Assembly (NCBI GenBank): GCA_035235625.1
Contig: CP141148.1
Span: 14,385,057 to 14,449,056, forward strand
DNA: 64,000 bases
Origin: Saururus chinensis
Lineage: Eukaryota; Streptophyta; Magnoliopsida; Piperales; Saururaceae
Direction: 5' to 3'
The notes under the pieces are model-generated. The model searched no databases and was not told the DNA's origin. It worked only from the letters and a program-made list of their open reading frames with translations. Of the stretch, positions 11,809 to 58,467 are shown piece after piece. The position numbers and the translations under genes are program-made. Within the stretch, counting starts at the first letter, position 1. Every line of letters begins with the position of its first letter.

Positions 11809-13240
11809 TGATAAGTATGAAATCTATATCTATTTTATATGCCTTTTTACCTTATTTGCTAGTATAGATTAGGTTAATTTAGAGTTAATTATGGTTTATT
11901 TAGATTAAGATAGATATTAGTATTTTAGTTTAATTATTAATGATTTTGTAGTTATTAGTTGTTTAGACATGTATTTAAATCAAGATGGAATTTTAGTTAC
12001 TTTCTACATGTCTAAAGTATGATATTTTATGTTTTGTAGGTAAAGCGCGCTTATCGAAGTACTTGGACGATGTTTGAAATGATTAAAAATAGTCTTCACG
12101 TGCTTTAAAGTGATTTGGACAACTTTTCGGAGTTATAAACAAGTTCGAAATTAATATCGACACGAAGGAAAGCTTAATGAACAAAATATGAACTATCCAG
12201 GAAAACTGTCCAGATTGCAGAAACACTGTAGCCGATCAAACGGGGTCACTTACCAATCGATCGGGATAACATGAATTCAGACAAAAATACAGTTCAAGCG
12301 TTCGAACGGGCATGCAGGGCGATCGAACGGCATAATATGCAGTTTCCTTGTTTGACCCAAATTTCAATCCTTTTCATATTGGACTTCTTCCTACGGAACT
12401 TATGCCTATAAAAAGACATATTTGGCTTAAAATTGGGGGATTCCAGTAGATTTTCTGAAGAGAAAAAAAAAGAAGAAGATGGAAGAGAACTCAAAGCTTT
12501 TAATGGAGATTCAAGTGCTTTCTTCTACAATGGAAGGCTAGACTTTTCTTTTACTTAAGAGTTAATGAAGCTATAGATAAGTTTCAGTTTCTTTTCTTTT
12601 TAATTTAGATCTCAGTTGTGAATGATGACAATTGTATGATATGGATTTCCTTTTTAATGGAAGAGCTTTTAATGTTTATTCAAGTCTATGTTGATTTATT
12701 GTCTTGTAGATGATAGATTGATATGGTTTTGATATTTGCATCGATTCTAATTTCTGTGATTTAGATGAGATGGTCATACAATAGTTTTAATGTTCAGTTA
12801 ATTAATGACTTAGATGAGTTATACTAAGATTAGACGGGTCATGCCTATAGCTAGTTTAGTGTAGATGATTCGTGCTATTGTTGAAGATAGTTCATGCCAT
12901 AGAAGTTAATTAATAATTCTTTTTGAAGTAATTCTAGCTTGTAGCTGAGAATACTTGTTCATATTCACACTAGATTTAGATTAAAAGTTAAGAAATTATT
13001 ATGGTTCTATAGTGGATTCAATTTCCTAAGTAAATTCCATCGAATTAATCTCTTGCTTTTAAACTAGTTGATTTCTTTCTTTTGCTTAATTTAAGTTTAA
13101 GTTTGTTTTAGTTTTTAATCAGCAAATTCCTCTTTAGATTTAGTAATAATTCATCCGTCCCTGAGGTTCAACAACCCTTAAATACTTATCCTAGTACAAT
13201 TACCTTGTACACTTGCAAAGGGTTTAATTATAAACGATCA
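11809..13240 (+). mobile_element. Solo LTR, family 2 (copy 1), TSD TGCAT
   Basis: A 1432-base unit, TGATAAGTATG...AAACGATCA, bounded by TG and CA and flanked by identical 5-mers TGCAT (11804-11808 and 13241-13245). It is nearly the same as the unit at 26377-27797. A TATA box (TATAAAA, 12417-12423) with purine-rich downstream sequence suggests + orientation. There is no internal domain, PBS or second LTR, so it is a solo LTR left by LTR-LTR recombination. It interrupts the gag of the older Copia element. Upstream of the TATA box it carries four variant GATCGATC palindromes (12229-12335). Confidence 0.92.
12229..12345 (+). repeat. GATCGATC-type palindrome cassette in solo LTR 1
   Basis: Four sites in two pairs: CGATCAAACG / AATCGATCGG (12233-12264) and GTTCGAACGG / GATCGAACGG (12299-12330). 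The second pair is separated by GCATGCAGGGC. The same cassette, with perfect GATCGATC cores, is in the sister copy at 26783-26890. It appears in reverse complement in the unrelated family 1 LTRs. Confidence 0.7.
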
Positions 13241-22526: not shown

Positions 22527-22535
22527 TTACTCGAA

Positions 22536-22875
22536 GGGAAAATTATTAAAATAATAATTAAAAAAAATATTTACCAAAATATACCACTTTGGGAAATATT
22601 TCCCAAAGTGGTGTTCCTTTTTGCCACGCAGGCGCCAGCGTGATTTTTTTTTAAGTTGATTTCGTCGTTTAGAACGACGAAATTGGTTTAAATACGATTT
22701 CGTCATTCTAAACGATGGAACCTTTTATTACTTGACCCGGTTTCGTCGTTCAGAACGATGAAATCAACTTAAGCTGATTTCATCGTTCTAAACGATGAAA
22801 CTCCCGCACTTATCCCTTTTTGCCCTTTGGTCTCGCCTACAACACTAATTTCGTCGTTTAGAACGACGAAATCAT
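22536..22875 (+). repeat. Left TIR of the MULE with five tandem palindromes
   Basis: An outer AT-rich part (22536-22610) is followed by a GC-rich box (TTGCCACGCAGGCGCCAGCG). Then come five palindromes of half-site TTTCGTCGTT and its complement at 22659-22683, 22696-22721, 22740-22765, 22776-22801 and 22847-22873. Compared with the right arm it lacks two palindrome units between 'CTCCCGCACTT' and 'TGGTCTCG'. An extra short inverted repeat (CCACTTTGGGAAA / TTTCCCAAAGTGG, 22586-22611) is only in this arm. Confidence 0.92.
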
Positions 22876-25800
22876 CGTCTTTTTAGATTGCCCGTCCGCT
22901 CTGCCTCCATTCGGGTTTTACAGTGAGTTTTTGAGTTTTCAGAGATCAGTACGCTCCATCGCCACCATCTCGCCGCCTCCAGCCCGCTGCCATCTCGCTT
23001 CCCCCGGCCGGCCGCCATCTCGTCTCCTCTGGCCGGCCGCCAGTCTCTAATCCTTCGGCCCGCCGCCATCTCGCCTCCTCCGGCTTTGTAGTGAGTTTTC
23101 CCTACGCTCCACCACCTCCTCTGGCTCATAGACAGTCTTGCCTCTTCCAGCCTGCCGTCATCTCACCTCCTCTGGCCCACCGCCGGTCTTGCCTCCTCTT
23201 CCCCACCGCCTTCGCCGTCGGCCCCCATTCTAACCACGCCAATTTCGTCCCTATTCTGTGGTACGTTAATTCCTTCATTTTTTTTAATAATTACATTAAA
23301 AATGTGTTGATTAAAAGTATGTACTTAAATTAAATATTTGATACGTGTCTAGAGAATTTGGTTTGTGACATTGCATAGTTTGTGACATTAATTCGGTATT
23401 TTGGTGTAACTTGTGATTTGGATGGTTTAGTTAAAACTAAACATTTTTTGTTGAGTGGCTTTAGATGCTTTTTTTTACGGCTTATATGGTTTGTGACATT
23501 GCATGCGTTATTGTATCAATTGTGTAATTTTATTGTTTAGAAAATTTGCTTATTAATATAAAGTATTCATGATATGCTTATATAATTGGTAAATCTATTA
23601 ATTTCTATGCGTATATATTTTGAAAATATATTGGTTAGGGTAGATATTAGTATTAGTTTGTTTAATCTAATATTAATTTAATTTATTGTTTATGAATTAA
23701 TTGAATAGAAATGGCAGAAGAAATGGTTAGTTTTTTAATTAACTACAACCGCCGCATAAAAGGATTATTAATTAAGAAACCGTCTACATTTGATGAATTT
23801 GAGATGCACGTAGCAAGCAAGGTTGGGTTGGAACGAAGAAGATGGAAAATTACTATCAAATATAATATTCCGTCCTATGGATCGAGAATGATACTAATGC
23901 ACATAAATGATGATGCATCAATGGCTTTTATGTTTCACCACTCGTGTGAAAAAATTTCTATTGAGTTATTTCTCGAAAAAGAGGCTCGAGTGACTAGTGA
24001 AAGGCGAAGTAGTTCACATAGGAGCTCTCACAAAAGCTCACACAGGAGCTCAGATAGAAATGTGAACAATGAAGGTCATATGCAAATGCTGGTGGACGAT
24101 GAAGAAGAAAGAAATTTATCTATGACAGTAGCTTCAAATGAACGTCATAGGTCGTCTGCCCCTATTTACAATGGAAGTGGACCTAATTGGAGGTAAGGTT
24201 GATTTAGTTGTGAATACGTTTTCAATCTTATTATCCTTTAATGAAAATACGTTTATCTAAATTTTGAAAATTTGTGTGTAATATGGAAGGTCCACGACGC
24301 ATGCACACGAGCCATTTAGCGTTCAAATGTCTCAAGGCGGTGCATGGTATGAAACTCAAAGTTCGATGGGCCTTCATTACCCCTACACGTATGTTGGTCA
24401 TACTGATGCTGGACCATCTAATCAAAGGTGAAATCTATATTTATAAATGAATTCAACTTTTTTAGGCTTACGAAATTTAATACATATGCGATGTTTATAT
24501 GTAGAGGGGGATATGTCTACGGTGAAGATATTGATGAAAATAAGGATAATGAAGGTGAAGATAATATTGACGAAGTAAGTGGAGAAGATTCTGACATTAA
24601 TGTAGAAGGGGTTAGAGGTGAAGAAAGTGCTCAACAGATGGTTGACGGCGAGGGGGATGATGCGGTCGACAATGCTGTTGCTGGGAATGATATGAATGTA
24701 GATGATGAAGAGCCGTTGTACTGTGAAGTGGAGCCACTTTATGCACACATCACAGATGAGGAGATAGATGCGGCAATTAATTCTACAATGGTTATGGACC
24801 AACAAAATGAAGATGAGTTATATGTTGGTCGTATCTTTGAGAATAAAGAAGTATTCGTTACATCCTTGTAGGAGTTTTCTATTCAAAATCATGTCGAATA
24901 CAAGGTTGTACGAACAAATCCGTCGAAGTATAAAGTAAAGTGCATTAATAGCACTTGTCCTTGGAGAGTGCATGGCTCAATCAAAAGGGGTGGTGGGTAC
25001 TTTAAATTGAAGACGTACAAAGGTGATCACACATGTCAGAATGCCCAACTTAGCACAGATCATAGGCAATGCAGTGTCTCCTTTATTTCAAAGGTCATAA
25101 TGCCCGCTATCCAAGCCGAATTAACTCTAACACCAGGGGATATTATTCAAAGAATGAAGGAGAAGTACCATGTTGACATATCTTATAAGAAAGCATGGGC
25201 AGCAAGGAATATGGCGATCAAGGTTATTTATGGAGATTCGGTAGAATCATATAAACTGTTGCCAATGTACCTAAGGGCGGTACAAGAAGCGAATCCTGCC
25301 ACCTACTACCGCTTAGAGGTTGATGAAGTACATCGTGCAGATGGTGCCATATGTAGGAGATTTAAGCGTTTGGGCCGTCTATTGCAGGGTTTCGACATTG
25401 CATCCCCATGATTGGTGTTGATGCCACTCACTTGTATGACAGATACCCCGGTGCTCTTATGGCTGCAACGGCTACAGATGGAAATAATGGGTTATTTCCT
25501 CTTGCATTCGGGCTTGTCGGGTAGGAAGATGGAGACAATTGGAAATGGTTTCTAATGGAATTGAGGGATCATTTACTGATGGGCATGACGAACATCATCA
25601 TTATTTCAGATCGACATAAGGGGCTTCAAAAGGTAGTGCCTGAGGTTCTTCCAGAGCCGGATTACCACCATCGTTTTTGCATCCATCACATAAAAGCAAA
25701 TTTTAAGAAGGAGTTCAAAAATGATACACCGACGGACTTGATTGGGGCAACAGCTTGTGCACTCACAGTAGAAAAGTTTGATGCTAAAATGGACTTGATT

Positions 25801-26376
25801 GGTCAAGAGAGTCCTAGGGCAAAACATCTCCTCTTAGGAGGAGAATTGCATCCTGCACAGTGGTCCCTTGCACACGATGGTTTTATGACATTTGGCATGA
25901 CGACTACAAATATGGCTGAAAGTTTAAATAGTGTCTTAAAGGGGGCACGAGGTTTACCTATGCAGGCTTTAGTGTCAACTATCTTTTATCGGCTCATAAA
26001 ATTTTTTGTTAAACGATCTTCTGCCGCCTCTGCCATGACCACCCCATATACTCCTAGAGTGGAAGCCATATTGAGAGAGCAAACAAGAAAAATTGGGGAG
26101 TATATAGTTAATATGATCAACATGAGTCAATACGAAGTAACATCAATTCGTGCCCAAAAGGTTATGGTAAATGCTGCGATGCATACTTGTACATGCAACA
26201 TCCCTCAGGTTTATGGTTATCTTTGCTCGCACCTTATCACCGTGTGGGCAAAGCGGTGGGAGCCAATCCATGCATCACTGTTTTACACATCTTCTACTTA
26301 TAAAATGTGTACTCCGCAAAATTTTATTCTTCTCGTGGTCGGGAGTATTGGGAGAGGGATATACCTTTTGTGTTAT

Positions 26377-27797
26377 TGATAAGTATGAAATCTATATCCA
26401 TTTTATATGCTTTTTTACCTTATTTGCTAGTATAGATTAGGTTAATTTAGAGTTAAATATAGTTTATTTAGATTAAGATAAATAATAGTATTTTAGTTTA
26501 ATTATTAATGATTTTGTAGTTATTAGTTGTTTAGACATGTATTTAAATCAAGTTGGAATTTTAATTACATTATACATGTCTAAAGTATGATATTTTATGT
26601 TTTGTAGGTAAAGTGCGCTTATCGAAGTACTTGGACGATGTTTGAAATGCTTAAAAATAGTCTTCACATGCTTTAAAGTGATTTGGACAACTTTTCGGAG
26701 TTATAAACAAGTTAGAAATTAATATGGACATGAAGGAAAACTTAATGAACAGAATATGAACAGTCCGGTAAAACAGAAACACTGTAGCCGATCGATCAGG
26801 GTCACTTACCGATCGATCGGGATAACGTGAATTAAGATGAAAATACAGTGTATCCGATCGATCAGGCATGCAGGGCGATCGATCGGCATAATGCGCAGTT
26901 TCCTTGTTTGACCCAAATTCCAATCCTTTTCATATTGGACTTCTTCCTACGGAACTTATGCCTATAAAAAGACATATTTGGCTTAGAATTAGGGGAGTCC
27001 AGTAGATTTTAAGAGGAGAAAAAGGAAGAAGAAGATGGAAGAGAATTCAAAGCTTCTAATGGAGATTCAAGTGCTTTCTTCTACAATGGAAGGCTAGACT
27101 TTTCTTTTACTTAGGAGTTGATGAAGCTATAGATAAGTTTCAATTTCTTTTCTTTTTAATTTAGATCTCAGTTGTGAATGATGACAATTGTATGATATGG
27201 ATTTCCTTTTTAATGGAAGAGCTTTTAATGTTTATTCAAGTCTATGTTGATTTATTGTCTTGTAGATGATAGATTGATATGGTTTTGATATTTGCATCGA
27301 TTCTAATTTCTGTGATTTAGATGAGATGGTCATACAATAGTTTTAATGTTCAGATAATTAATGACTTGGATGAGTTATACTAAGATTAGACGGGTCATGC
27401 CTATAGCTAGTTTAGTGTAGATGATCCGTGCTATTGTCGAAGATAGTTCATGCCATGGAAGTTAATTAATGATTCTTTTTGAAGTAATTCTAGCTTGTAG
27501 CTGAGAATACTTGTTCATGTTCACACTAGATTTAGATTAAAAGTTAAGGAATTGTTATGGTTCTATAGTGGATTCAATTTCCTAAGTAATTTCCATCAAA
27601 TTAATCTCTTGCTTTTAAACTAGTTGATTTCTTTCCTTTACTTAATTCAAGTTTAAGTTGTTTTTAAATTTTAAATAAGCAAATTCCTCTTTAGATTTAG
27701 TAATAACCCATCCGTCCCTGAGGTTCGACAACCCTTAAATACTTATCCTAGTACAATTACCTTGTACACTTGCAAAGGGTTTAATTATAAACGATCA
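26377..27797 (+). mobile_element. Solo LTR, family 2 (copy 2), TSD GTTAT, inside the transposase gene
   Basis: The 1421-base unit, TGATAAGTATG...AAACGATCA, is flanked by perfect duplications GTTAT (26372-26376 and 27798-27802). It is very similar along its whole length to 11809-13240, with a TATAAAA box at 26963-26969. It splits the transposase C-terminus. The transposase reading frame is continuous across the site when the LTR and one GTTAT are ignored, so the insertion came after the MULE had settled. Its GATCGATC cassette at 26788-26888 has perfect cores, unlike copy 1. Confidence 0.95.
26783..26890 (+). repeat. GATCGATC palindrome cassette in solo LTR 2
   Basis: Four near-perfect sites: CCGATCGATCAGG, CCGATCGATCGGG, CCGATCGATCAGGC and GCGATCGATCGGC. 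The last two are separated by ATGCAGG. It lies about 80-180 bases upstream of the TATA box. Confidence 0.75.
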
Positions 27798-28068
27798 GTT
27801 ATACCCACCGATAGCAACAAGGCAACCCGGTCGCCCACGGTCTGTTCGCATTAGGAATACTATGGACCGCAAAACAATGGAAAGAGATGGTAGAGGAGGA
27901 TATAAATGCGGGAGGTGTAAACAAAGTGGGCATAATAGTAAATCATGTAGAAACCCTCCTGTTGATTGGTAAACATATAATCAACCTTTGTATTTATTAT
28001 ATTTTTTTAGTTATGTACGCATGTATTCCTTACGATTAATGATATGATCTTCATTTTCCACATATCAT

Positions 28069-30205
28069 ATGGATCATGCAGAGCCTTGTTACGGGCCAGG
28101 CCTGAGTGACGCTTCTTTACTCGTAGAGCAGGAGTCACATAGGTCTGCTGCTATTTGGAGAGGAGAGGTATGATAACTTTTTTTAAAATTTGTTTCATTT
28201 TTTTTGGTTGATATAGTACGACATGTTATAATTTTAAAATTTATTATAGGACCCCGGGTGCCTTGAGTGCACTGAACATTTTAAATATCCCCGCCATTGG
28301 CCCATAGATGAGCGTATGTTACCTTATATCGAGCAAGCGGGATTTGGCCATTTCATTCATCTACAGTATGTCTGTCTCGATCGGCCTCTATTGACAGCTC
28401 TTGTTGAGAGATGGAGGAGGGAGACACAGATGTTTCATTTGTCATATGGAAAGATGTCCATCACGCTCATGGATGTGCTAGTTCTATTAGGACTCCGTAT
28501 TGATGGACGTCCGGTGACAGGCACGACAGGAGGAGCTCATATGGATATATTAGTTAGACTTCTTGGTAGAGCTCCTCCTACTACAGTGATGCGTGGTAGC
28601 CGAGTGAGCCTACGATGGCTCTTGCAGGAGTTTCGCGAGCTCCCAGCATATGCTACAGAGATAGTTATCGAGCAGCATGCACGAGCCTATATATTGCATT
28701 TACTTGGAGCCACCATATTTGTGGATACCACGAGCAGCCACGTGCATGTTTCGTATCTCTCTCTCCTTGCCGACTTTGACATGGCTGGCACTTATTCATG
28801 GGGTAGTGCTACTCTCGCATTCTTATACCAAGAGTTAGGAAATGCATGCCAGGCCATGACCTCGGGGATTGCGGGCTGTCTGACCCTTCTTCAGGTAATT
28901 AATTGTGTAACTTTACTTGGTGTTTTAGTCACGTATAATTTTTTAATTCTAATATTTGTTATCACTATTTTATGACATAGTTATGGTCGTGGGAGCACTT
29001 ACACGTCGGCCGACCAACTGCTGAGATGGATCGCTTGGTCGAGGGTGCTCCATTAGGGGCGAGGTAGGTTGTATTTATGTTTACCACATTACTTTTTAAG
29101 CAACATTTTACGTACATATGCTGAACTCATTTCTTAAATTTAACTCCTTAAGGTGGAATGTTCAGAAGATGAGAACCGAAAATCCACAAGGAGTCCTCCG
29201 TTTGTATAGAGGGGAGTTAGACCACCTGCGGCCATACCAGGTAATTTTATTACCGTGTTGAACTTTTTTATGTAATGATTTTAAAATTTTTTGTCATTAT
29301 TTAAACTAAATTATCTTTATATATTGTATAGATTATTTGGCAGCCGTACTCGGAGGACTTGTTGGCTGTGATACCTCCACTCTGCACGGACGGTTGAGAG
29401 GTGTGGCTTTCTCGAACCCCTCTAATATGTTACGAGATTATAGAGATGTATGTGCCAGATCGTGTAATGCTCCAGTTTAACCTGGAGTATTGTCGACTTT
29501 GTCCATCCCATCGCTCGACAGGGCCGCCATATTACCGACTGGGCTATATATCATGCGTCGTATATTGCTCGATGGGAGGATAGGAGAGCCACTGTTATTA
29601 GAGGGGAGATGGCTACGACATTGCAAGATGTTCGTAGTACTTATATGCACTGGTATTTACCGATTACACGGCGATATATTTTACCGCGCGATGATGTAGA
29701 GGAGATGACATATCAGCCTAGGGGAGCATCTGAGGTAACTCTAGTAAGTACAACTTTGTTAATTAAGGCATATATTATTTTCTTATTTAGTTTTAATTAT
29801 TTATCTAATATTTAATTTATTTTTTTATAGCTTCGTCAGATTCGACATACTAATGCGTATTTGAGTGATGCACTTGTCACCTGTACTTCGTGCGAGGACT
29901 TAGCAGCAACATGTGAGTCGGTGATTAGAGTGTCTAATGATGTCCTTCGTAGCTTGCCACTACTTCATTCGGTGATCACGGATGTTCATCGAGATTATCC
30001 TGTCGACGAGGCCGCTCAGACGCAGCCGATGCACTCTTCATGCCCTGATATTCCATCATCATCAGCAGCATATAGCTCTCTTCCAGGTTCATCATTTCCA
30101 GACACTACACATGTCGCTCAGCCAGATCCGATTTTATATTATAGACGACATCGGCCAGCTTGTATTGTACCATCTATTACTTATGCTGAGCCGGAGCTGG
30201 AGCCA

Positions 30206-30239
<34 letters not shown>

Positions 30240-30361
30240 AGGAGCCTGACATGGAGTCACAGCCGGAGCCGGAGCCCCAGCCCCAGTTGGAGCCAGAGCC
30301 AGAGCTAGAGGTAGATCATGAGGAGCTCGTACACCACCGTCGAGGACGAGGTCGAGGATGA
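28069..30361 (+). pseudogene. Plant mobile domain (PMD, MAIN-like) protein, disrupted
   Basis: Six exons fit GT/AG rules and frame: 28069-28167, 28250-28894, 28981-29063, 29153-29240, 29332-29743 and 29831-30361. The product is a PMD/aminotransferase-like protein, related to MAIN and the 'phosphatase 7 long form' family. It shows HLQYVCLDRPLLTALVERWR (start of the domain), SITLMDVLVLLGLRIDGRPV, then LWSWEHLHVGRP and TYMHWYLPITRRYI. The C-terminus has a Glu-Pro dipeptide run (30190-30310) and an Arg-Gly tail (RRGRGRG). Exon 5 holds an in-frame TGA (29395-29397) and a net +1 frameshift near 29480-29500. Cellular MAIN proteins act in transcription/TE silencing in Arabidopsis; the role of transposon PMD is unsettled. 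The start lies about 100 bases after the transposase stop, same strand. Confidence 0.88.
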
Positions 30362-30584
30362 GGACGAGGATGTAGGAGATTATGACATTACTTATGATGT
30401 ATTATATTTGTTACTCGTCTATGATGTACTTTACTTATATTTGTTATGGTGATATTCATGATAGTGATATTTGTTATGGGTGGAATGAATGAAGTCGTGC
30501 ATGTATTGTGTATGTTTTGAATGAATGAACAGGGACAGGTGATAAAATTAGTTTTAAATGGTAATTTTTAAAAAAATTTAATTT

Positions 30585-31005
30585 GATTTTGTCTTTTAGA
30601 ACGACGAAATCAGTGTTGTTCCGAGACCAAAAGCCGAAATTAGCCAAGTTTGGCAGTTTCGTCGTTCAGAATGACGAAATCAGCTTAAGTTGATTTCGTC
30701 ATTATAAACGACGAAATCGGGTCAACAAGTGCGGGAGTTTTGTCGTTCAGAACGACGAAATCAGCTTAAGTTGATTTTCTCGTTCTAAACGACGAAATCG
30801 GGTCAACTAATAAAAAGTTTCGTCGTTTAGAACGACGAAATCGTATTAAAACCAATTTCGTCGTTCTAAACGACGAAATCAACTTAAAAAAAAGCCACGT
30901 TGGCGCTAGTTGCTTGGCTGGTGCCTGCGTGGCAAAAAAGAACACCACTTTGGAAAATATATTTTAATAAATATTTTTTTTAATTATTATTTTAATAATT
31001 TTCCC
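30585..31005 (-). repeat. Right TIR of the MULE with seven tandem palindromes
   Basis: The reverse complement of the left arm, with seven palindromes (starts 30585, 30656, 30691, 30737, 30772, 30817 and 30854), the GC-rich box (TGGTGCCTGCGTGGCAAAAA) and the AT-rich end. Units are spaced about 35-45 bases apart, often joined by AGCTTAAGTTGAT, itself partly palindromic. Confidence 0.92.
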
Positions 31006-31014
31006 CTACTCGAA

Positions 31015-39499: not shown

Positions 39500-40708
39500 T
39501 ATCTGCTTTGCTTGAATCAATCTCTTTGACAAATCTTTCCTGATCCTGTTATTGAAAAAAAAAGTCCCAAACCATGGACAAGAGCTATTTGGGATGGTTG
39601 TATTCTGGATTTGGCATGCAATACTCGTTTTCTTTTTGCCAAATTGGACTGAGAGGATACTCTTTGTTATTGCAATTTTTGCTGTGACTGGAATTTAACA
39701 TGTCCAATTCTGTTTGAACCATTTCTCTAGTGCTGTTTATGTGGGTAAGCCTTCCAGGAATGACTAGTTTGAGAAGCAGACAATAGGTACTATTAACATA
39801 TAAAATCTATCTTCCTTTCATAGTAACATGAAATGAAAGAATTAAATAATTTTGACAAGATAGCAAATAATGGCATGTGTTAATGGTCAGGATCAAAATT
39901 TAGACTATTACACACAATATGATGAGCATTGTGATTAAGTTATCTTCCACCACGCAATGCTAATACCAACCAAACAATTATTTGTTAGAATTTGAACCAA
40001 AGGATTATAGGAAGAATTTGACATTATTTTGTAGTGACATGACAGGTTGTTGTCTAAATTTTAATTGTAATAGTGATTTGAGCTTTTTTAAAATTTATGC
40101 ATTTCATACTTAATTTTTGGATTCACTGTCATAATTGAAACCATTTTGAATTTCAATTCTTTGACTTCCCTATATCATGATTGAGTTCTTTTTGCTAGAT
40201 AAAACTTACTTTTGTAGGATATGTTAAGCCGCATCATGGATGTCATTTAGTAAACTATTTGCCATGAGTAACATACTCAAGAGGTCATTGATTCTTCAGA
40301 TAGAAGTTCAGTTATTCTAAATTCAACTTTTTTTGTAGACATTTTAGAGACCTAGCTCAGAGAGTGTCAGTTTATCATATAGGCTGACTTCACAATTCAG
40401 TCAAGCTATTAGATGTATTTAACAAGTTATAATTTTTGAAATATTGTGTACTAGTTTCTTTTTTTATTTGTAACCATGTATGATAGATCATGTCGCTATT
40501 GTAATAAATGTTAGATGAGTTGTTATCCTAGAGCCAATTGTTTTATAGAATGTATAACTTGATTAACAGAGTTAAAAGCACCATAATTTTCTAGTTTTGG
40601 TAGTGTAATGCTGAAACATATTAACGTTCTTGATCTTAACGTTTTTGGTACTAAATTAAAAGTTTGGACCAAGATATTTTTATCTAAAAGGTAAAGCTTC
40701 ATTGTAAT
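39500..40708. other. Unassigned AT-rich sequence
   Basis: No gene, RNA or repeat was found. Its last 5 bases (GTAAT) are the left TSD of the next solo LTR. Confidence 0.4.
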
Positions 40709-43700
40709 TGTAACGCCCAAGATTTTTCATATATTTTCCTCAAAATTCACGGAAATTTTTTGCAATATAATTGCTATAAATTAGAAAAAATGTCGAATAT
40801 GAAACCTGTGAAAGCAATTTTATAATTTAAAACATAACACATTGGTTTTCCAATACAAATTTTTACTCATTCGATCAAACATCATACGACTAAACCGAAC
40901 ATCCTTAGGCGCTACTCGAAAACAACTGTATGGATAAATTGCTATGATCATAGACTTTAAATACAAATATCTCTGAGGCATCCCTGAGTGCAAGTCTCAT
41001 AACAGTCCAAAGTCTAATCCAAATGAAAGTTCAGAATATATAAACATCTTAGTTCTCGTCTCACCCAATACATCAGATCATGGCACAAAATAATACTCAC
41101 AGTGAGCTAAGTGTATACCTGAGTCCAAGGGAATCAATCCACCTCGAAAATGAGCATTTATCTCCAGGAGCTTTCTGTCACAAACCTGCAAAAGCCTCCC
41201 TAACAACTGGCCTAAAAAAAATAGGGTAATGAGTATTTTCATACTCAGTAGGAAAATACCCAGTAGGGGAGTTCTAAACAGTGAACTCAGTAAATCCATA
41301 CATAGAAGCGTTCATGCAATTCAAACATGAAGCAAACAAGTATATCATAATCACGCTCATATGCATACAAATACGCATATCATCATGCTAAAATCATACC
41401 ATCAAACCGATCTTGCACATACACTCTTAATCATAGTCATATAAACTTACTCGTACCACCGTATGCTTTCTCAAACAACTTACACATACCTGTACGACCC
41501 TACTCGTACAATCATATGCTTACTCATACAGCTTACACATACTTGTATGACCTTACTAGTACAATCTTACACTTGTTGTATGACCTTACTCGTATAGTCA
41601 TATGCTTACTTGTACGACCTTACTCATACAATCTTACTCAGAATCATACTCTTACAGTTGTGCTCATATTCATACTCTTACAGTCTTACACATACTCATA
41701 CTTATACTCTTACCGTCGTGATCATACTCATACTCTTACAATAAGTCGTACACATACTATCAATCACTGAAGCTCATTACAACTAATAAGCTCCAATGTC
41801 GAAATAGAAAAGAATGTCACTGGGGCATCACCTTAACCTCCAGGGAGTGACTAGACGCCATGGACTTTTCTGAAGGCAAGGCACACCAATGCTCATGGGC
41901 ACAGGATCAAACAGGTAAGAGCAGGTCCATGATACTACTTACCTAAGCGTGCAAACATAAGCACCCATACATAAGGGGTCATACAATTGCCCACCATAAT
42001 GGGTCTTATAGTGCCAATGCCACTCTTGGGCAAAAACGTACAATGCCACTCTTGGGCGGAATCATACAACGCTCTCAACAGAGCATCAAACATCTGGGCT
42101 TATACAGCACACAGACCAAATCGGAAACATACATCACTCTCAACAGAGCATCAAATGTATGAGCTTATACAACACACATACTAAATAAAAAATATATGTC
42201 GCTCTCAACAGAGCATCAAATGTCTGGGCTTATACAGCACACAAACCAAATCGAAAATATATGTCGCTCTCAACAGAGCATCAAACTCTAGTGCTTTATA
42301 CAACACACAGACAACATCCCGCAGGATAAACACCATGGCAAGACATGAGAAATACTCAGTCAACTCATTATCCGCTAGCTCAAACAAAGAACTTAATCTG
42401 TCAAACCCTCAAGCCTCAAACTCACAATGCTATCATTAGCTGTGCTTATAATTCAAGTTTGAATTAAGTAAATTATGCGGTACAATTATGCCAAACAAAC
42501 TCACAGTCCTCGACTGATCAAACCAAAGCTGAGCTAGATCAAAACCTTGTCAGGGCAGCAAACTTCACTTAACCCGTCCGAATCATGATCAACTCATTGT
42601 ACATCAAATCCTTACAGTCTTACATACTCCACCATCCAACTTATGGCCAAAACATCATACACAAACGTCATCAAACTAAGCTCCTCATAACCAAACCCAG
42701 TTATCACCCTCTTACTTATACCTCACTTATTATGCTTACTTTTTACTTCATAATCTGTACGTTGTGCTTGTACAATTATGCACACTCTTACTGTCTGACA
42801 ATCCCCAACATGTGCTCTGATCCAAAATAATCCACTCTAATCCTTGCCTGTCATACTCATATCCTCTATCATCCGTCATACGTTTGCACATCCATATCCA
42901 TATCCATATCAAACACTGTCACTTCTTACCATCCATAGCCCATACCTCTGCCCACATGCACATACATATATCCATAGCATAGACAAATAACCATCATACA
43001 TACGTATGTCCATCACACATACGTATAACATATACATACGTTCATACACACGTAGCTTACAAACATTCTCACTAGTCATCACTAGCGCATACATACACAT
43101 ATGAAGCTTACCAACAAACACGCTAGCCATCACTAGCACACTCAATCATACAAAGCTTACCAACAAGCACGCTAGCCATCACTAGCACATACTCAATCAA
43201 CAGATGAAGCTTACTAACAAACATGCCAGCCATCACTAGCACATACTCAATCCACATACGAAACTTACCAACAAACATGATAGTCATTACTAGCACATAC
43301 TCGATCAACATACGAAGCTTACAAACAAACACGCTAGCCATCACTAGCACATACTCAATCAACATACGAAGCTTACAAACATACACGCTAGCCATCACTA
43401 GCACATACATACATCTAACATACTTACAGCCAACATGCATGTCATATGCATTTCAACATGGCATAATTCATCCTCTTATATCATGCAAATGGATCATAAT
43501 CTAACATCCATAGCATTCAATCATATAGTCCTAGCATGTTGCTACTCATTTAAAGAATGGTATCATGAAATTATAAGTTCAAAGCTCCCCTACCTCGTAA
43601 TCATGACGTTTGATGGCGAGCACATGACGGTGGCAGCGTCGATAATGAATTGGCGGCCACAAGCATTGCCAAGTTGTGAGAACTATTATCTTGAGGATTT

Positions 43701-45135
43701 TAGGAAATACCGGAAACAATCACGGCTAAACGGGGTGTTAGAAGTCAATGCAGCAAAATCCGCGACCAACGGCGGCACACTAGGCGGCCGGGAGAAAGGT
43801 CAAGGCAACATGAGTGGCGGTGCGACTAGATGTCGAGGGTGTACTCACTAAAGGTCGGCCGGCAGCTAAGAAGTACTCTGTCGGCCGCAAGACGTCAAAA
43901 TCGGCTATGGACAGCACCCAACGATGACAATTTCAAGTCAACAAGGGCCAGCATACTGGTGGAGAGCATGGGGTGATGCTCGAGGACAGAGGGAAGATGG
44001 GTTGGACAGTAACAACCCAAGGCGCACAAAGGGGCAATGGAGCTATGGCTAGAAAGTGGTGGCCGATCAGAGCAGCGACATTGCCAATCACCACCCACAA
44101 CCAACAAATTTGGTGTGGGCAGCTGTGCATATAGCACAGTATAGGGCCAAGGCAAGCGGGCCATTCTAAGCGGAGGTATAATCGGGCCAAGTGGGGCTGA
44201 CCCTTACTATCACGGAGCCGGGGCAAAGCCCACGATGGTCAAATGGCCCATGGCTCGCCGATGGCAATGACCCGAGACACACCCAAAGCTTCTAATCGGG
44301 CGGAGCAAGACAATAGGGGTGAAATGGGGTCGGAAACGGCAACCCCCTACCGACATTGGGTCGATGTAGGCTAGGCGAAGTCCGTCTGGTGGCCAGACAA
44401 TGACTGGAAACACACCGGCATCTAAAAACATCATGGACATTGAAATGAAATATAGGAACAAAAACCTGACCAAAGTACCGGTAGCTCACAACAGAGCAAA
44501 GAAAGCATGGTGGCGGCTCTAGCCAGCGCTTATGGGTTCCTAGCGGCCAACTAAATATAAGTCTAATTGAGGGCGGCCACAAATGACATCAAAATCGCAC
44601 CCCCACAGCTCAAAAATCAGATTTGAAGGAGAATAAAACCGAAGAAAAGTTCGGTACCTCATGGAGGAGCGAAGAGGCCATGGCAGCGGTCATAGCCGGT
44701 ACCTACGGACTCGTGGCAGTGAGGCAAAGAGGATCCCAACAAGAATTGGCAAAATCCGACAATGGAGGAGGGAGAATGGAGCGACCAGAATCTCACTCGG
44801 GTTCTCACAAAAGTCACTGGACGTGAAAAAGTTTCTGGGTTCAAAACTTACTGGAATCTGATGTTCGGATTTCAATTTATATACTCTTTTTAAGTTTTCC
44901 ATTTATGTCCCCAACACGCTTTCCCAGTTACGCGTTGTAGCTCCAAAATTTATGCCATAAGCGGGTGATGAAGCCTACGGTCCACGACTAAGCCCTACAC
45001 CCGACTCTACGCGTATAAATATTGGAGAAAATACACAAATATGAATACACTGAAGCGTCACATTTTCACGCCGAAAATGACTAGAAAAATAGTAGAAAAA
45101 ACATAAAAAATCGTAGAAAAATCAAGGACCTTACA
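40709..45135 (-). mobile_element. Solo LTR, family 4 (copy D), 4.4 kb, TSD GTAAT
   Basis: The unit runs TGTAACGCCCAAG...AGGACCTTACA with perfect 5-base duplications GTAAT (40704-40708 and 45136-45140). It is collinear with 48839-53557. On the minus strand it would start TGTAAGGTCC, like family 1 (TGTAAGGACC), and a TATATAAATT box lies near 44874-44884 on that strand, so it probably points left. The interior has tandem blocks (41500-41770 CATACTCTTACAGT type, 42060-42300 CGCTCTCAACAGAGCATCAAA type, 43040-43420) and a GC-rich part (43620-44830) with open frames but no known domain. No gag-pol. Confidence 0.92.
43040..43420. repeat. Tandem repeat inside solo LTR D, about 55-58 bp unit
   Basis: About seven copies of ACGCTAGCCATCACTAGCAC followed by ATACTCAATCAACATACGAAGCTTACAAACAA. 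Each copy contains the inverted pair GCTAGCCATCACTAGC. The array makes long open frames on both strands that are not genes. Confidence 0.9.
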
Positions 45136-48011: not shown

Positions 48012-48838
48012 TTAAGTAAATCAATCCCCTAAGAGCACTAGCATAGGAATTGTCCCGACCCAAATTTTTAAAAACATTTTTAAATTGCACGAACGGTAGG
48101 TAGGGAATTTTTTTTTGTTTAAATACAAAACAAACCCTTCGATTAAATATCCAGGTCATGATAACTGGGGTTCACAAATATAAATATCAAATCATATGAT
48201 ATTATTTAACATTTAAAAATTCATAAAGACCAGCTCATCTATCTAAGTACAAGTCTGTCACCCGTCTAAAAATAAATAACAAGTTGAATCTCACGTTAAA
48301 GATACACAAACGTATCGGAGTTACAAAAGCGCAAAAACTTCTTCTTGTGCTCACCTTTCTTGGTCTCACTTGTCGTGGCCTGGAGAATCTGCAACAAGCC
48401 AAACAAAACAACCACAACAGCAACAATGGAATTTCTCCACGTTTAGGAGAAGAGCTTCCAAAGGGCAAAAGGTTTTATTAATATTTTTCGAATTAGGCCA
48501 ACATCACCCGATGTTAGTTGCCTACGTACTCATCAGACAACATCTCCAATGTTTCCAACAAGATCGGATCCAGACGTAGTTCTGCCTAAAAACTACACTA
48601 TAATAAGAAGCATAGCATCACGCATGCAATGCTTAAGTATTTTAAAGAAACCTACCTTTTATGCAAGTTCTTTAATCGTTCCACTTGTCTAATTAACAAG
48701 CAATATCAAATAATGTTATCCATTATCTCTCAAACCATTGTTCAATAATTAACACTAACAAATTTGTATTCACTTAGAGACAACTCGCCCGTCAAGAAAT
48801 CTCCAAACACAAGACTCCAACATGCAGAACATTAATAT
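48012..48838. other. Unassigned spacer before solo LTR E
   Basis: Short open frames only. Its last 5 bases (AATAT) are the left TSD of the next solo LTR. The patch near 48050-48140 ('GTCCCGACCCAAATTTTTAA') resembles the GC-rich start of other LTRs here but has no partner end. Confidence 0.35.
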
Positions 48839-49496
48839 TGTAACGCCCGAGATTTTTCACACATTTTCCTTAAAATTCACAGAAATTTTTTTTCAATATA
48901 ACGTCTGTAAATCGGAGGAAAAATGACGAAACCAAAACCTGATAAAACAGTTTATAATTTAAAACATTAAACATCCACATACGGTCAATCATCGTACGGC
49001 CAAAGCAAATATCATCAGGCGCTACTCGAAAACACACGTACGAATAAATTTGCTATGATCATAGACTTTTAAATACAAATCACTCTCCCAGGCATCCCTG
49101 AGTACAAGTCCCATAACAGTCCACTGACTGATCCAAATGAAAGTCCAGAATAAACATCTTGTGTTCTCATCTCACCCAATACAGGAGATCGTGGCACAAA
49201 TAAACTCGCAGAGAGTCAAGCAGATACCTGAGTCAACGGGAATCAATCCACCGTTGAAACGAGCGTCCATCACCAGGAGCTCTCCGCACAACCTGCAAAA
49301 CCTCCCGTACAACGGGGCTAAAAATAGTAGGGTGAGTATTTTCATACTCAGTAGGACCCAGTAGGGGAAATCCCAAATGGTGAACTCCAAGTTCAAAAAT
49401 GCATGCATCATGCAACTCAAACATGAAGCAGTCAACATAATATAATCATATCGTGCACATACGCATACGATCATACTAAATGCACTATCGTGCCAA

Positions 49497-49622
49497 AGAC
49501 ATACCAAATGCACCACCGTGCCAAAATCATATCAAGGCATCATCGTGCCAGAATCATACCGAAGGCACCATCGTGCCAGAATCATACCAAAGGCACCATC
49601 GTGCCAAAATCATACTATCCAA
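49497..49622. repeat. Tandem repeat in LTR E, about 31-bp unit
   Basis: Four to five copies of CCAAAGGCACCATCGTGCCA plus GAATCATA; hardly present in copy D. Confidence 0.9.
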
Positions 49623-49849
49623 ACAACTTACACAAACACCCTTATCCAGGGTCATACAATTTACTCGTACCACCGTACGCATACTCATACAACATACGCA
49701 TACTTGTACGATCTTACTCGTACAATCGTATGCTCACTCATACAGCTTACCCATACATGTACAACCTTACTCGTACAATCAGACTCGTACGACCTTACTC
49801 GTACAGTCTGCACAAAATCATACTTATTGTCTTACTCAGAACCATATTC

Positions 49850-50065
49850 TCACAATCGTACTCATCCTCTTACAGTCGTGCTCATACTCATACGCTTACA
49901 GTCTTACTCATACTCATACGCTTACAGTCTTACTCATACTCATACGCTTACAGTCTTACTCATACTCATACACTTACAGTCCTGCTCATACTCATACACT
50001 TACAGTCCTGCTCATACACATACAGTCGTACTCACACTCATACAGTCGTACTCATAATCGTACAC
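49850..50065. repeat. Tandem repeat in LTR E, about 26-28-bp unit
   Basis: Copies of CTCATACTCATACGCTTACA followed by GTCTTA/GTCCTG. The array is open in three frames on +, which explains the 180-200 codon frames at 49480-50098. These are repeat artefacts, not genes. Confidence 0.9.
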
Positions 50066-50294
50066 ATATCAACGACCACTGAAGCTCATTACAACTAATA
50101 AGCTCCAGCGTCGAATTGGAAAAGAATGCCACTGGGGCAACACCTTAACCTCCGGGGAGTGACTAGACGCCATGGACTTTTCCGAAGGTAAGGCACACCA
50201 ATGCTCATGGGGCCTTTGGATCAAACAGGTAAGAGTAGATCCATGATACTACTTACCTGAGCGCGCAAACATAAACACCCACACATAAGGGGTC

Positions 50295-50475
50295 ATACAG
50301 TTGCCCACCATAATGGGTCTTATAGTGCCATAGAATCGCCCACCATAATGGGTCTTATAGTGCCAGAGAATTGCCCACCATAATGGGTCTTATAGTGCCA
50401 TAGAATTGCCCACCATAATGGGTCTTATAGTACCATAGAATTGCCCACCATAATGGGTCTTATAGTACCATTGCC
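50295..50475. repeat. Tandem repeat in LTR E, about 35-bp unit
   Basis: Five copies of TTGCCCACCATAATGGGTCT plus TATAGTGCCATAGAA. Copy D has a single unit at 41979-42013, so this array expanded after the two LTRs diverged, or shrank in D. Each unit contains the inverted pair GCCCACCATAATGGG. Confidence 0.92.
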
Positions 50476-50519
50476 ACTCTTGGGCAGAAACGTACAGTGC
50501 CACTCTTGGGCGAAAACAT

Positions 50520-50765
50520 ACAACGCTCTCAACAGAGCATCAAACGTCTGGGCTTACACAGCACACAGACCAAATCAGAAACATACGTCGCTCTCAGCAG
50601 AGCATCAGACGTCTGGGCTTATACAGCACGCAGACAAAGTCAGAAACGTACATCGCTCTCAACAGAGCATCAAACGTCTGGGCTTATACAGCACGCAGAC
50701 CAAATCAAAAACAATGTCGCTCTCAGCAGAGCATCAGATGTCCGGTGCCCTATATAGCACACAGA
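50520..50765. repeat. Tandem repeat in LTR E, about 60-bp unit
   Basis: Four copies of CGCTCTCAACAGAGCATCAA plus 'ACGTCTGGGCTTATACAGCACACAGACC'. Each begins with the hairpin-like CTCTCAACAGAG. Similar copies are in D at 42061-42300. Confidence 0.9.
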
Positions 50766-53747
50766 CAACATCCCGCAGGATAAACACCATGGCAAGACAT
50801 GATAAATGCTCGGCCAACTCATCAGCGGCCAGCTCAAACACGGAACTTAATCCGTCGAACCCTCAGGTCTCAAACTCACAACGCTATCATTAGCTGTGCT
50901 TATAATTCCAGTTTGAATTAAGTATATTATGCGGTACAATTATGCCACACAAACTCACAGTCCTCGACTGGTCAAATCGAAGCTGAGCCCGATCCGAAAC
51001 CCAAGTTCGTCAGGGCAGCAGACTTCACTTACCCGTCCACATCATGGACAAAACTCATCGTACACCAAACCCTTACAGTCTTACACTTCGCCATCCATCT
51101 TATGGCCAAAACCTTACACTGACATCCTCAAATAACGCTCCTCAGAGCCAACCCAGTTGTCGCCCTCTTACTTATATCTCACTTATTATACTTATTTTTC
51201 ACTTCATAATCTGTACGTTATGCTTGTACAATTATGAACCCTCTTACTGTCTGACAAATGCCCAACACACAATCCACCCCAAACTGATCCATTCTAATCC
51301 TTGCCTGTCATACTCTTATCCTCTGTCATACGCTTACACAACCGCATCCAAATTCAGACAGAGCTTCTGTCACCTCTTACTGTCCATCGCCCATACTTTT
51401 GCCCACATACTCTTACACCTACCCAAAGCATAGGCAAATGCCATCATACATATGTATGTCTCACACATACATAGAACATACACATACGGTCATACATACA
51501 TAACTTACAAACATGCACGCTAGCCATCACTAGCACATGCATACATCAAATGTACACGCTAGTCATCTCTAGCACGTGCACACACATTCTTACATACTTC
51601 AAACATGCACGCTAGCCATCACTAGCACATGCATAACCCATACATAGCATATTGACATATTTGCTAGCCATCGCCAGCGCATACATAATCCACATCCATA
51701 AAACATGCATACATCTCATGCCTATCAATCATACCATACAATCATGCTTACACGCACCTCATGCAATCGGATCGTTACTTAACATCCAAGCATGGAATCA
51801 TACAATCCTAGCATGCTGCTACTCATTCAAAGCATGCTTCATGAATTTACGAGTTCAAAACTCCCCTACGTCGTAATCATGGCGTTCGATGGCGAGCACA
51901 CGACAGTGGCGGCGTCGGCGGCGGAGTTGGCGGTCAAACCGTTGCCTGGCTGAGAGAGCTGCTGTCCCGAGGATTTTAGGATGCGCCAGAACTATCACGG
52001 CCAAACAGAGTGTTAGAACTCAAAGCGGTAAAACCCGCGATCCACGGCGGCACACCAGGGCGGCCGGGAGAAATCTCATGCCAACATAAGTGGCGGTGCG
52101 ACCAGAAGTCAAGGGTGTACACTCTGAAGATCAGCCGGTGGCTAAAACGTGATCAGCCGGCCACAAAGACATCGAAATCGGCCGTGGACAGCACCCAACG
52201 GCGACGATTTCGGTCAACAAAGGCCCACATAAGGGCGGAGAGCGTGGGGCAATGCTCGAGAATCAAAGGAGAGGTGGAGGACGGCTCTAGTGGTCAACTC
52301 CACTCGGTGGCAAAGCCAACCGATGGTTAGGCGGCAAGAATGCGGCGCCTAAACCCAGAAGTACACGCGTGGCCACATGCACACGCGACCCAAAAGGGCG
52401 GGGGAACTGGCTGAAATGAGGCGACTCATGGCCCACAAAAGCCAACCGGGCTAAGGCCCTAGCGGTGGCCAATCTAAGTGGCGACATCGCCGATCGCCAC
52501 CCACAACCAAAACCCATGGTGTGGGCGGCTATGCATCTCGCACGGTATAAGGCCATGACAAGCGGCCCATTCCGAGCGGAACAATAATCGGGCCAAGTGG
52601 GGCTGACCCTCACTGTCATCGAGCCGGAGTAGAGCCCACGATGGCCAAATGGCCCATAACTCGCCGATGCCAACGACCCGAGACGCACCCAAAGCGTCTA
52701 ATCGGGCGGAGCAAGGCAATAGGGGCGAGGCAGGGTCGTAAACGGCAAACCCCTACCGACACTGGGTCGAGGTAGGCTGGACGGAGTCCTACCGGTGTCC
52801 GAACGGCAACCGGAAACCCACCGGCGTCCAAAAACTCCCACGGACAGTGAGATGGAATAGTAACAAAAACCCGACCAAAAGATCGGTAGCTCACCACGGA
52901 GCGAAGAAAGCATGGCGGTGGCTCCAGCCAGTGTCTATGGGTTCCTAGCGGCCAACTAAACATAAGTCTAGTTGAGAGCGGCCGCAAACGATGTCAAAAT
53001 CGTACACCCACAGTGCAAAAACGGGATTGAAGGAGAGAAAAACCCAAAAAAAAGTTCGGTACCTCGTGGATGAGCGAAGAGGCCGTGGCGGAGGTCATGG
53101 CCGGTACCTACAGACTCGTGGCGGTGAGGCAAAGCGGATCCTGACAAAAATCAACGGAATTCGACGACGGAGGAGGGAGAACGGAGCGACCGGATATGCC
53201 CTCGGGTTTTCTCTTCTCCTCTCTGGACGTGAAATTTCTTCTGTAAGTTTCTGGAACGAAACTTACTGGAGATGGCTTTTTAAGCCGTGATTTTTCTATT
53301 CACCTTTTTTATTTTTATATCTATGTCCCCAATGCGCGTTAACTCACTGGTTACGCGCTATAGCTCCAAACTTCGCGCCGTAAGCGCGCAACAAGGCCTG
53401 TGGCCCACGACTAAGCCCCACACCCGACTCTACGGGTATAAATACGGGGAAAAGACACAAATACCCATACGCTGAAACGTCACATTTTCCCGCCGAAAAT
53501 GACCAGAAAAATGGCAGGAAAATCCCAGAAAATCGTAGAAAAATCAGGGACCTTACAAATATACAGTGGCACACGTAAAGTAATATACAGAGCACTGAAT
53601 ATAACATAGTTCAGAAACATGGCTGACCTTTAACTAATAAAGACCAACACAATGCACAAGACAATGGACACCGTTCAGGAAACAATGCACTAATTGTTAC
53701 TTGAAAAATACCGACTCCCGCTCAAAAGAGTAATTGTATGCTAACAG

Positions 53748-54155: not shown

Positions 54156-54876
54156 AGCTTAAACTTTTACTCTGAGAACATCCATAACCACCATCGATTC
54201 ATTAACCAAGGTAAAATTCTATGTCAGGGCCCCGTTCACTCCATGAACTGGTCCCAACCCTAAAGAGGGTATTTTAGTTATTATCTTGATTAGGTGTTCT
54301 TCCCCCAATCCAAAGACAACCAAAATCTCTTGATTAGTCTTTATTAACCTTAAGCTACTGATATAACTTTAAACATCAATAATAAAAGCATACATCAACA
54401 TAATCAACATGACAAGAACTTAGACTCATGCTGAGATGAACTAGCCAATTCAACATTATAATGAAAAGGACTTGGGGCTGAGATGCATAACTCAAGTTAT
54501 ACACCTAACATGACAAGGTTATGCTGAAACAACCATCAACATTCACCCTAATGTATATCACAATCAAGGCTAAAATTCAGGGATAAATTAGCTTAATTTC
54601 AAAGGCATCTTAGGCTCAAATTCAGAGACTTAATAAATATGAATATATCATGAACTAAGGCTCAAAAGTCAAGGATTGAATCAACAAGATTATAACCTAA
54701 ATCAAAGCTAAGAATCAAGTATTAGGTAGGCAATAATGCAACCTAAACTAGGGCTGAAACTTAGATGTTCTCTCAGCATGATTATAACATAAATTAAGGC
54801 TGAGAATTTTGTATTACATTGGCTAAAATAGAGCCTAAAACAAGGCTTAAAAATACTGATCTAAGTAAGCAAAAGC

Positions 54877-55775
54877 AGAGCCTAAACCAAGGCTTCAAAT
54901 CAGGGATTTGAGTAGCCAAAGTATGGCCTAAACTAAGGCCATGAATCAGGGATTAAATTGGCCAAATTATGGCCTATGGTAAGGCCACAAATCTGGGATT
55001 AAATTGGCCAAAGTATGACCTAAAGTAAGGCCACAAATCAGGGATTAAGTTGGCCAAGGTATGGCCTAAAGTAAGGCCACGAATCAGGGATTAAGTTGAC
55101 CAAAGTATGGCCTAAAGTAATGCCACGAATCAGGGATTAAGTTGGCCAAAGTATGGCCTAAAGTCAGGCCATAAATCAGAGATTAAATTGGCCAAAGTAT
55201 GGCCTAAAGTAAGGCCACAAATCAGGGATTAAGTTGGCCAAAGTATGGCCTAAAGTTAGGCCACGAATCAGGGATTAGATTGGCCAAAGTATGGCCTAAA
55301 GTAAGGCCACGAATCAGGGAATAAGTTGGCCAAAGTATGGCCTAAAGTCAGGCCACAAACCAGGGAATAAGTTGGCCAAACTATGGCCTAAAGTAAGGCC
55401 ACAAACCAGGGAATAAGTTGGATAAACTATGGCCTAAAGTAAGGCCACAAACCAGGGAATAAGTTGGCTAAACTATGGCCTAAAGTAAGGCCACGAATCA
55501 GAGATTTAATTGGCCAAAGTATAGCCTAAAGTAAGGCCACGAATTAGGGAATAAGTTGGCCACAGTATGGCCTAAAGTCAGGCCACGAACCAGAGATTAA
55601 ATTGGCCAAAGTATGGCCTAAAGTCAGGCCACGAACCAGAGATTAAATTGGCCAAAGTATGGCCTAAAGTAAGGCCACAAATCAGGGAATAAGTTGGCTA
55701 AACTATGACCTAAAGTAAGGCCACAAACCAGGGAATAAGTTGGTCAAACTATGGCCTAAAGTAAGGTCAAAACTA
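54877..55775. repeat. Tandem array, 46-bp unit, about 19 copies
   Basis: The unit reads AGGCCACGAATCAGGGATTA then AGTTGGCCAAAGTATGGCCT then AAAGTA. It contains the inverted words GGCCA/TGGCC at regular spacing. Copies differ at a few fixed positions (AATCAGGGATT against AACCAGGGAAT), giving sub-families in blocks, as in an array grown by local duplication. Confidence 0.96.
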
Positions 55776-58466: not shown

Positions 58467-58467
58467 C

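Follow-up and report, generated by a model that had tools for sequence, protein, structure and literature searches.

A dead two-gene Mutator-like element of Saururus chinensis whose family suggests selection on its plant mobile domain gene

The window analysed here is a stretch of 64,000 nucleotides (nt) of Saururus chinensis (contig CP141148.1 of assembly GCA_035235625.1, positions 14,385,057-14,449,056 of the forward strand). Positions 22536-31005 of the window are a complete Mutator-like element (MULE), now a dead copy, from a large family of MULEs that have terminal inverted repeats (TIRs) and two genes, one encoding a transposase and the other a plant mobile domain (PMD) protein. A comparison with related elements of this genome suggests that the family has retained the PMD gene under selection and has not simply carried it along as a passive hitch-hiker.

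The first paper on a PMD inside a MULE is reportedly that of Babu et al. 2006. MULE-borne PMD genes are already described, and the element of the window adds a member to a known type. The comparison within the family adds that the PMD is part of the element and is probably under selection, that the junction between the two genes is probably spliced, and that the TIRs carry a conserved array of palindromes. The reason why MULEs keep a PMD is left open in the literature (PMC5418596, PMC8616336). Since this one genome holds a large family with both close and deeper copies, the transposase of the same elements can serve as the yardstick for selection on the PMD gene, for its splicing and for its partner sites.

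Results

Ends and genes of the element

The ends and exons are listed below.

22527-22535, no strand: left target-site duplication TTACTCGAA, 8/9 identical to the right copy
22536-22885 (inner border approximate), forward strand: left TIR, ~345 nt, 5 palindrome units (self-comparison, alignment)
23711-24192, forward strand: transposase exon 1
24290-24427, forward strand: transposase exon 2
24505-26376, forward strand: transposase exon 3, with PF03108, PF10551 and SWIM (below cut-off), then interrupted by a solo long terminal repeat (LTR)
27798-27972, forward strand: transposase C-terminus with a CCHC knuckle (zf-CCHC_2 2.2e-3, below cut-off), stop TAA 27970-27972
28069-28167, forward strand: PMD exon 1, ATG at 28069
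28250-28894, forward strand: PMD exon 2, PF10536 positions 1-181 (6.3e-47)
28981-29063, forward strand: PMD exon 3
29153-29240, forward strand: PMD exon 4
29332-29743, forward strand: PMD exon 5, stop 29395-29397, frame change between 29487 and 29510
29831-30361, forward strand: PMD exon 6, EP-repeat and RG-rich tail, stop in this copy 30359-30361
30580-31005 (inner border approximate), reverse strand: right TIR, 426 nt, 7 palindrome units (self-comparison, alignment)
31006-31014, no strand: right target-site duplication CTACTCGAA, 8/9 match with the left copy

The element has the long TIRs, the ~9-bp target duplication and the Mutator-type DDE transposase domain (PF10551, PF00872, PF03108) of a MULE. 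The outermost 38 bp of the TIRs are 100% identical in inverted orientation, and inverted-repeat arms (I1) of 180 nt have 91% identity. When 22536-22900 was aligned globally with 30560-31005 in reversed orientation, an alignment whose inner end extends past the TIRs, 282/350 ungapped columns were identical. The right TIR exceeds the left by one 81-nt palindrome pair.

The transposase matched PF03108 (2.3e-7), PF00872 (8.8e-6) and, in two pieces, PF10551 (1.9e-4, below its cut-off, and 2e-8, above it). The SWIM (18.7 bits, cut-off 19.6) and CCHC_2 (18.2 bits, cut-off 27) matches both fell below cut-off; by eye the cysteine pattern can be made out. In the translation, the acidic residues that a Mutator DDE transposase should have lie in the motifs GVDATHLY, IISDRHKG and NMAESLNS and are presumably the catalytic ones. 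The PMD gene has six exons, and all five introns have GT and AG ends. Exon 2 alone gave the PF10536 match listed above; with the exons joined and X placed at the lesions, the match was full-length (1.4e-84, profile positions 1-346 of 347). Most sibling rows do not have a stop where exon 6 of the window copy ends.

An earlier note on this DNA had placed the TIRs, the 8/9 target duplication and both genes on one strand, and all lie where it put them. It had also named the absence of PF10536 and PF10551 matches as grounds for refutation; when the domain check was run both profiles matched, and this refutation failed. Its wording "only a few lesions" was too generous. The transposase gene is broken by in-frame stops at 24869-24871 and 25522-25524, by frame changes at ~25360 and ~26300 and by the solo LTR, while the PMD gene has the stop and the frame change of exon 5 and, compared with siblings, has lost a splice acceptor at 28062-28063.

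A viral-contig scan with PMD exon 2 and a genome-contig scan with the transposase core returned no relatives. Sequence searches of the PDB gave no match for PMD exon 2 and two insignificant matches for the transposase (E 0.23 and 0.66). The window contains no tRNA and no Rfam family at gathering score.

Distribution of the two genes among siblings

We searched the genome (516,460,831 bases, 11 contigs) with the TIR as query. This search gave 2,401 first-look candidates, 40 of which were scored, and the 20 best of the 39 non-self full-length matches were taken as the sibling set, so that older or shorter family members are under-sampled. The gene-content survey used TIR matches of at least 100 nt, and the survey of ends and duplications used TIR matches starting no later than query base 12. 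PMD sequence was found in 20/20 siblings and transposase sequence in 18/20. In the sibling search that the earlier note had proposed, both genes lay between the same TIRs in these 18 siblings, always on one strand with the transposase before the PMD, and none of the 20 was transposase-only. The earlier note had named siblings with a single one of the two genes as its other ground for refutation; the two PMD-only siblings (L014 and L020, short elements with ~1.6 and ~3.3 kb between the TIRs) are read as deletion derivatives, and the note's interpretation is supported. All searched segments of both genes were present in 11/20 siblings (L009, L012, L013, L015, L016, L017, L019 and L021-L024), with one transposase segment found partly in each of L009 and L013. 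PMD exon 2 was missing from L010, L011 and L014, and L026 had only exon 2 in the stretch compared. It is a trait of this family that the PMD is a separate gene, placed after the transposase gene on the same strand and passed on together with it.

Both ends could be located in 18/20 siblings. We tried nine end choices and kept the best, a procedure that favours matches where the flanks are A/T-rich and that was run with no shuffle control. It gave a 9/9 duplication in 13 siblings and an 8/9 duplication in three (L010, L015 and L019). The duplication was not convincing in L024 (7) and L027 (5) and was ambiguous in L022, which lies in a TA repeat.

A profile search of the genome with PF10536 gave 186 matches from the 117/2,740 candidates scored, which is neither a gene count nor complete because exon pieces were counted and only these candidates were scored. 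Of the eight PMD loci taken from this search, seven (L001, L002 and L004-L008) also hold the transposase of this family. At the remaining locus, L003 (G000:C1:36967275-36968531), the PMD is distant: its match is full-length and lies outside the MULE family, identity over residues 27-215 of exon 2 is 38%, and the 4.3 kb examined contain no TIR palindromes. It is a candidate host gene or Ty3-borne PMD.

Constraint and co-divergence of the two genes

We compared the ratio of nonsynonymous to synonymous divergence (dN/dS) with that of shifted reading frames. Codons with stops or gaps were dropped throughout, and the anchored alignment omits insertions relative to the window copy. Rows with at least 15% gaps in a segment were dropped for the TIR-selected siblings and with 20% for the deep copies, and no such filter was applied to the CpG-excluded and L012 comparisons. 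The deep copies formed two comparison sets, one of L001, L002 and L005 and the other of L006 and L008. In these sets, dN/dS of PMD exon 2 was 0.16 and 0.17, against 0.96-2.06 in shifted frames, and that of exon 5a was 0.26 and 0.18 (shifted 0.64-2.92). The transposase gave 0.28 and 0.26 in its DDE segment (shifted 0.62-1.58) and 0.24 and 0.14 in its C-terminus (shifted 0.89-2.23), so PMD exon 2 was comparable to or below the transposase. When codons touching a CpG were excluded from the five deep copies, the PMD had 0.19-0.24 (shifted 0.43-3.36) and the transposase 0.24-0.36 (shifted 0.58-1.81). L012, the TIR-selected copy most diverged in its PMD, had 0.35 in the PMD (shifted 0.64 and 0.91) and 0.55 in the transposase (shifted 0.58 and 0.70).

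The pairwise distances of the two genes were correlated (r = 0.86, 23 sequences), and the correlation was also found when the five deep copies were left out (r = 0.65, 18 sequences); 0/2,000 permutations reached the observed value in either case. These results support the view that the PMD domain has evolved under purifying selection in this family, with a caveat on sampling that is taken up in the Discussion. The constraint in the deep copies argues that the PMD gene does something for the element.

Between L001, L002 and L005 and the other siblings, synonymous divergence was 0.52 in PMD exon 2 and 0.26 in the transposase DDE segment. This gap perhaps reflects module exchange between sub-families.

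Palindrome array in the TIRs

Both TIRs carry an array of 23-nt palindromes.

22660-22871, no strand: left array of palindromes TTTCGTCGTTNNNAACGACGAAA, units starting at 22660, 22698, 22741, 22778 and 22849
30587-30878: right array, 7 units starting at 30587, 30657, 30694, 30738, 30775, 30818 and 30856

At up to 3 mismatches the window contains 12 matches, all in the TIRs, compared with 0 in 100 shuffles. Read inward, the units are spaced by 38, 43, 37 and 71 nt on the left and by 38, 43, 37, 44, 37 and 70 nt on the right, which has an extra 81-nt step. The 18 siblings with both ends carry 8 to 13 units. An exact search of the genome located the palindrome at 1,152 sites, which both strands report alike because the arms are their own complement, and a reversed control at 0.

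Over 40 TIRs, identity was 99.1% in non-CpG columns of the palindrome arms, 89.4% in the spacers, 95.8% in the outer TIR and 87.8% in the CpG columns of the arms. Among 193 units there were 194 arm changes, namely 174 CpG transitions, 10 other changes at CpG sites and 10 elsewhere; units with more than 4 mismatches were dropped from these unit counts and kept in the column identities. In the array of the window copy, 10/13 changes are CpG transitions. The observed/expected ratio of CpG is ~2.0 and ~2.2 in the two TIRs, compared with 0.60 for the window. We read these patterns as those of palindromes that were probably kept by function or homogenisation while the family was active and then methylated, the methylation being suggested by the pattern of mutation. 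The conserved palindromes are a concrete place to look for binding.

Junction between the two genes and the 5' leader

Two further features concern the transcripts that the element may have made.

22890-23260 (start approximate), forward strand: candidate 5' leader exon, GC-rich, with no ATG, followed by a GTACGT donor
27969-28063, forward strand: probable 95-nt intron between the two open reading frames (ORFs), donor present; this copy has lost the acceptor AG (28062-28063)

The earlier note had the PMD start following the transposase stop by about 100 bases; the measured distance is 96 nt. It took the short gap to suit co-expression, and this argument does not stand as written, because the 96 bases look intronic in siblings and splicing leaves the ORFs in different frames. 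The donor (GGTAA) is kept in 22/22 gap-free rows, the window copy counted, and 19/24 rows have an acceptor AG 5 nt upstream of the PMD ATG, the window copy being one of the five that lost it. In deep comparisons the 95-nt interval is as diverged as introns, with 73% identity (PMD introns 74-85%), compared with 85% in PMD exon 2. These alignments suggest that in siblings the 96 bases upstream of the PMD start are probably an intron. Joining the conserved donor (27968) to the conserved acceptor creates a TG|A stop, and the PMD ATG follows after 4 nt in a different frame, so there is no fusion through the conserved sites.

The transposase ATG also directly follows a splice acceptor, and 22880-23260 of the window copy has no ATG. 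A shared leader spliced to either ORF would account for the two acceptors. Alternatively, the PMD gene may have its own promoter, or its translation may begin by restart. The GC-rich leader (22915-23465) exists in at least two versions that cannot be aligned, while the TIR and the intron align between the groups. The window copy, L011, L012 and L027 have one version, and 11/17 siblings compared (L021 among those compared) match L019 along almost all of it in the other. Exchange or capture of leaders between copies is a likely source of this pattern.

Solo LTR and other repeats of the window

The transposase gene is interrupted by a later insertion.

26377-27797, no strand: solo LTR (TG...CA), 1,421 nt, not part of the MULE, with duplication GTTAT and a site that is empty in siblings

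The earlier note had subtracted this segment as an insertion, rightly so: the LTR is bordered by a perfect 5-bp duplication, GTTAT, at 26372-26376 and 27798-27802, and its site is empty in 20/20 siblings with gap-free alignment on both sides. At 11809-13240 lies another LTR of this family. It is 93.9% identical to the LTR inside the MULE and is probably solo as well, because it is bordered by its own 5-bp duplication, TGCAT. Elsewhere in the window, 40707-45135 and 48837-53557 form a large direct duplication (~77-83% identity in the main pieces), and self-comparison of the window located local tandem repeat arrays at 54813-55781 and 58297-58809.

Discussion

Taken as a whole, the best explanation is that the element is a dead two-gene MULE with a selected PMD, proteins made from leader-spliced transcripts, and a PMD acting on TIR chromatin; we give this combined account somewhat better than even chances. 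Transcription would begin in or near the left TIR, from the GC-rich, ATG-free leader. The leader would then be spliced to the acceptor before the transposase ATG or to that before the PMD ATG, giving either protein. The transposase would act on the TIRs. The PMD protein may aid the element against host silencing or tune its expression, and may do so on the chromatin of the TIRs, whose CpG-dense palindromes show a methylation-type mutation pattern. A bolder form of this account, which we regard as improbable, is that the PMD is an anti-silencing factor acting on the TIR palindromes of its own element, and that its transcript starts at the transposase promoter, the shared leader being alternatively spliced. 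It would then be a TIR-based counterpart of VANDAL and VANC that was built from a family of host silencing factors.

Several results weigh against the combined account. Its main weakness is that the five deep copies were chosen by best PMD score, and the PMD dN is therefore biased downward in that set. The TIR-selected set, which is young and mostly decayed, gave dN/dS of 0.48 for the PMD domain (bootstrap 0.37-0.62; shifted frames 0.63 and 0.76), 0.59 for all PMD exons (0.49-0.70; shifted 0.52 and 0.76), 0.53 for the transposase core (0.39-0.72; shifted 0.58 and 0.73) and 0.52 for all transposase segments (0.43-0.65; shifted 0.54 and 0.85), and all of these intervals overlap the shifted-frame controls. 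Within this set PMD exons 1 (1.31), 5b (0.62) and 6 (0.68) had no clear constraint, and exons 2 (0.49) and 5a (0.30) were lower. In the deep sets, exon 5b had 0.37 and, in L006/L008, where it shows little constraint, 0.74 (shifted 0.59-1.66). The PMD tail is hardly constrained even there, since exon 6 had 0.65 and 0.53 (shifted 0.54-0.99). The identity of the palindrome arms is perhaps inflated, since the units were aligned on the basis of their own resemblance, and the units may also have been kept alike by homogenisation. Finally, many rows have a second T-rich AG inside the supposed intron, which may serve as acceptor.

The PMD protein could instead be a structural or catalytic partner in transposition, like a second Mutator protein, and not an antagonist of silencing. 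We regard this as possible, at clearly shorter odds than the remaining rivals. The constraint on the PMD is comparable to that on the transposase, the two genes co-occur in siblings, and the RG-rich tail could bind nucleic acid. On the other side stand the host PMD proteins, which work together with PP7L to silence and regulate genes (PMC7156037, PMC5418596, PMC8616336). No result here separates this partner role from the favoured anti-silencing role.

A neutral passenger, a single fused ORF and a nested Ty3 insertion were each considered and ranked below the combined account. MULEs often carry captured gene fragments (PMC5418596, PMC13317346), and a host gene captured by transduplication could have multiplied with the element with no function for it. 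The weak constraint among close siblings, with its overlap with shifted frames, fits such a passenger. It is made unlikely by the low dN/dS of deep PMD exon 2 (0.16-0.17, in copies picked by PMD score), the lower PMD value than in shifted frames in the TIR-picked L012, the PMD sequence in every TIR-selected sibling and the co-divergence with the transposase. Slightly less probable still is one fused protein of transposase and PMD, as in the grass and Amborella MULEs for which fused proteins are described (PMC5418596). Enumeration of other, unscored GT/AG pairs did give in-frame joins in the window copy, but the conserved donor and acceptor lead to a stop and a change of frame, and in an unspliced transcript the TAA terminates the transposase. 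That a PMD-bearing Ty3 element jumped into the MULE is extremely improbable. Such elements exist (PMC5418596, PMC9289625), but among the 20/57 repeat families examined no long direct repeat pair surrounds the PMD gene, and the sole recognised LTR is solo, lies inside the transposase gene and is absent from the siblings aligned at its site. The PMD is also present in all TIR-selected siblings, a set that overlaps but differs from the one used for the LTR site, and its position is common to siblings.

Comparison with known systems

In a literature search of mostly open papers without supplements, we identified none that measured selection on a MULE-borne PMD or described the array of 23-bp palindromes. 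The association itself has been reported repeatedly: fusions of PMD-C and MULE transposase together with two captures (PMC5418596), several plant MULE groups tabulated with a PMD (PMC6446971), and a restatement of the association in PMC9289625. PMD proteins made by transposable elements have been suggested to act in counter-silencing (PMC8616336), and an anti-silencing role of the MULE PMD is voiced as speculation in PMC5418596.

The closest parallels are the PMD-bearing plant MULE groups 42 and 45-50 (e.g. MuDR-9_OS, MDR, MUDRAVI2 and MUDR; Dupeyron et al. 2019, PMC6446971 Table 1), where we take "PMD" to stand for plant mobile domain. As tabulated there, and like the element of the window, these groups have a 9-bp duplication and the PMD as an extra motif or ORF, and most have TIRs tens to hundreds of bp long. 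Their transposases have SWIM or CCHC, to which the transposase of the window has matches below cut-off. In groups 47-50 the PMD is sometimes, often or mostly antisense, whereas here it is sense and downstream. The PMD-C/MULE fusions of grasses and Amborella (Ikeda et al. 2017, PMC5418596) likewise link a MULE transposase with a PMD, but in one frame; the element of the window has two ORFs in different frames, with a stop and a probable intron between them.

VANDAL elements with VANC (Sasaki et al. 2023, PMC10398659) are also MULEs with an extra gene. Like the TIRs described here, their noncoding region has arrays of short motifs, which in VANDALs are bound by VANC and targeted by RNA-directed DNA methylation (PMC10398659). 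VANDAL TIRs are degenerate, in contrast to the long, array-carrying TIRs of the element of the window. The host proteins MAIN and MAIL1 (Nicolau et al. 2020, PMC7156037) share the PF10536 domain with its PMD. They are products of host genes that silence transposable elements together with PP7L (PMC7156037), while the PMD described here is encoded by a transposable element itself.

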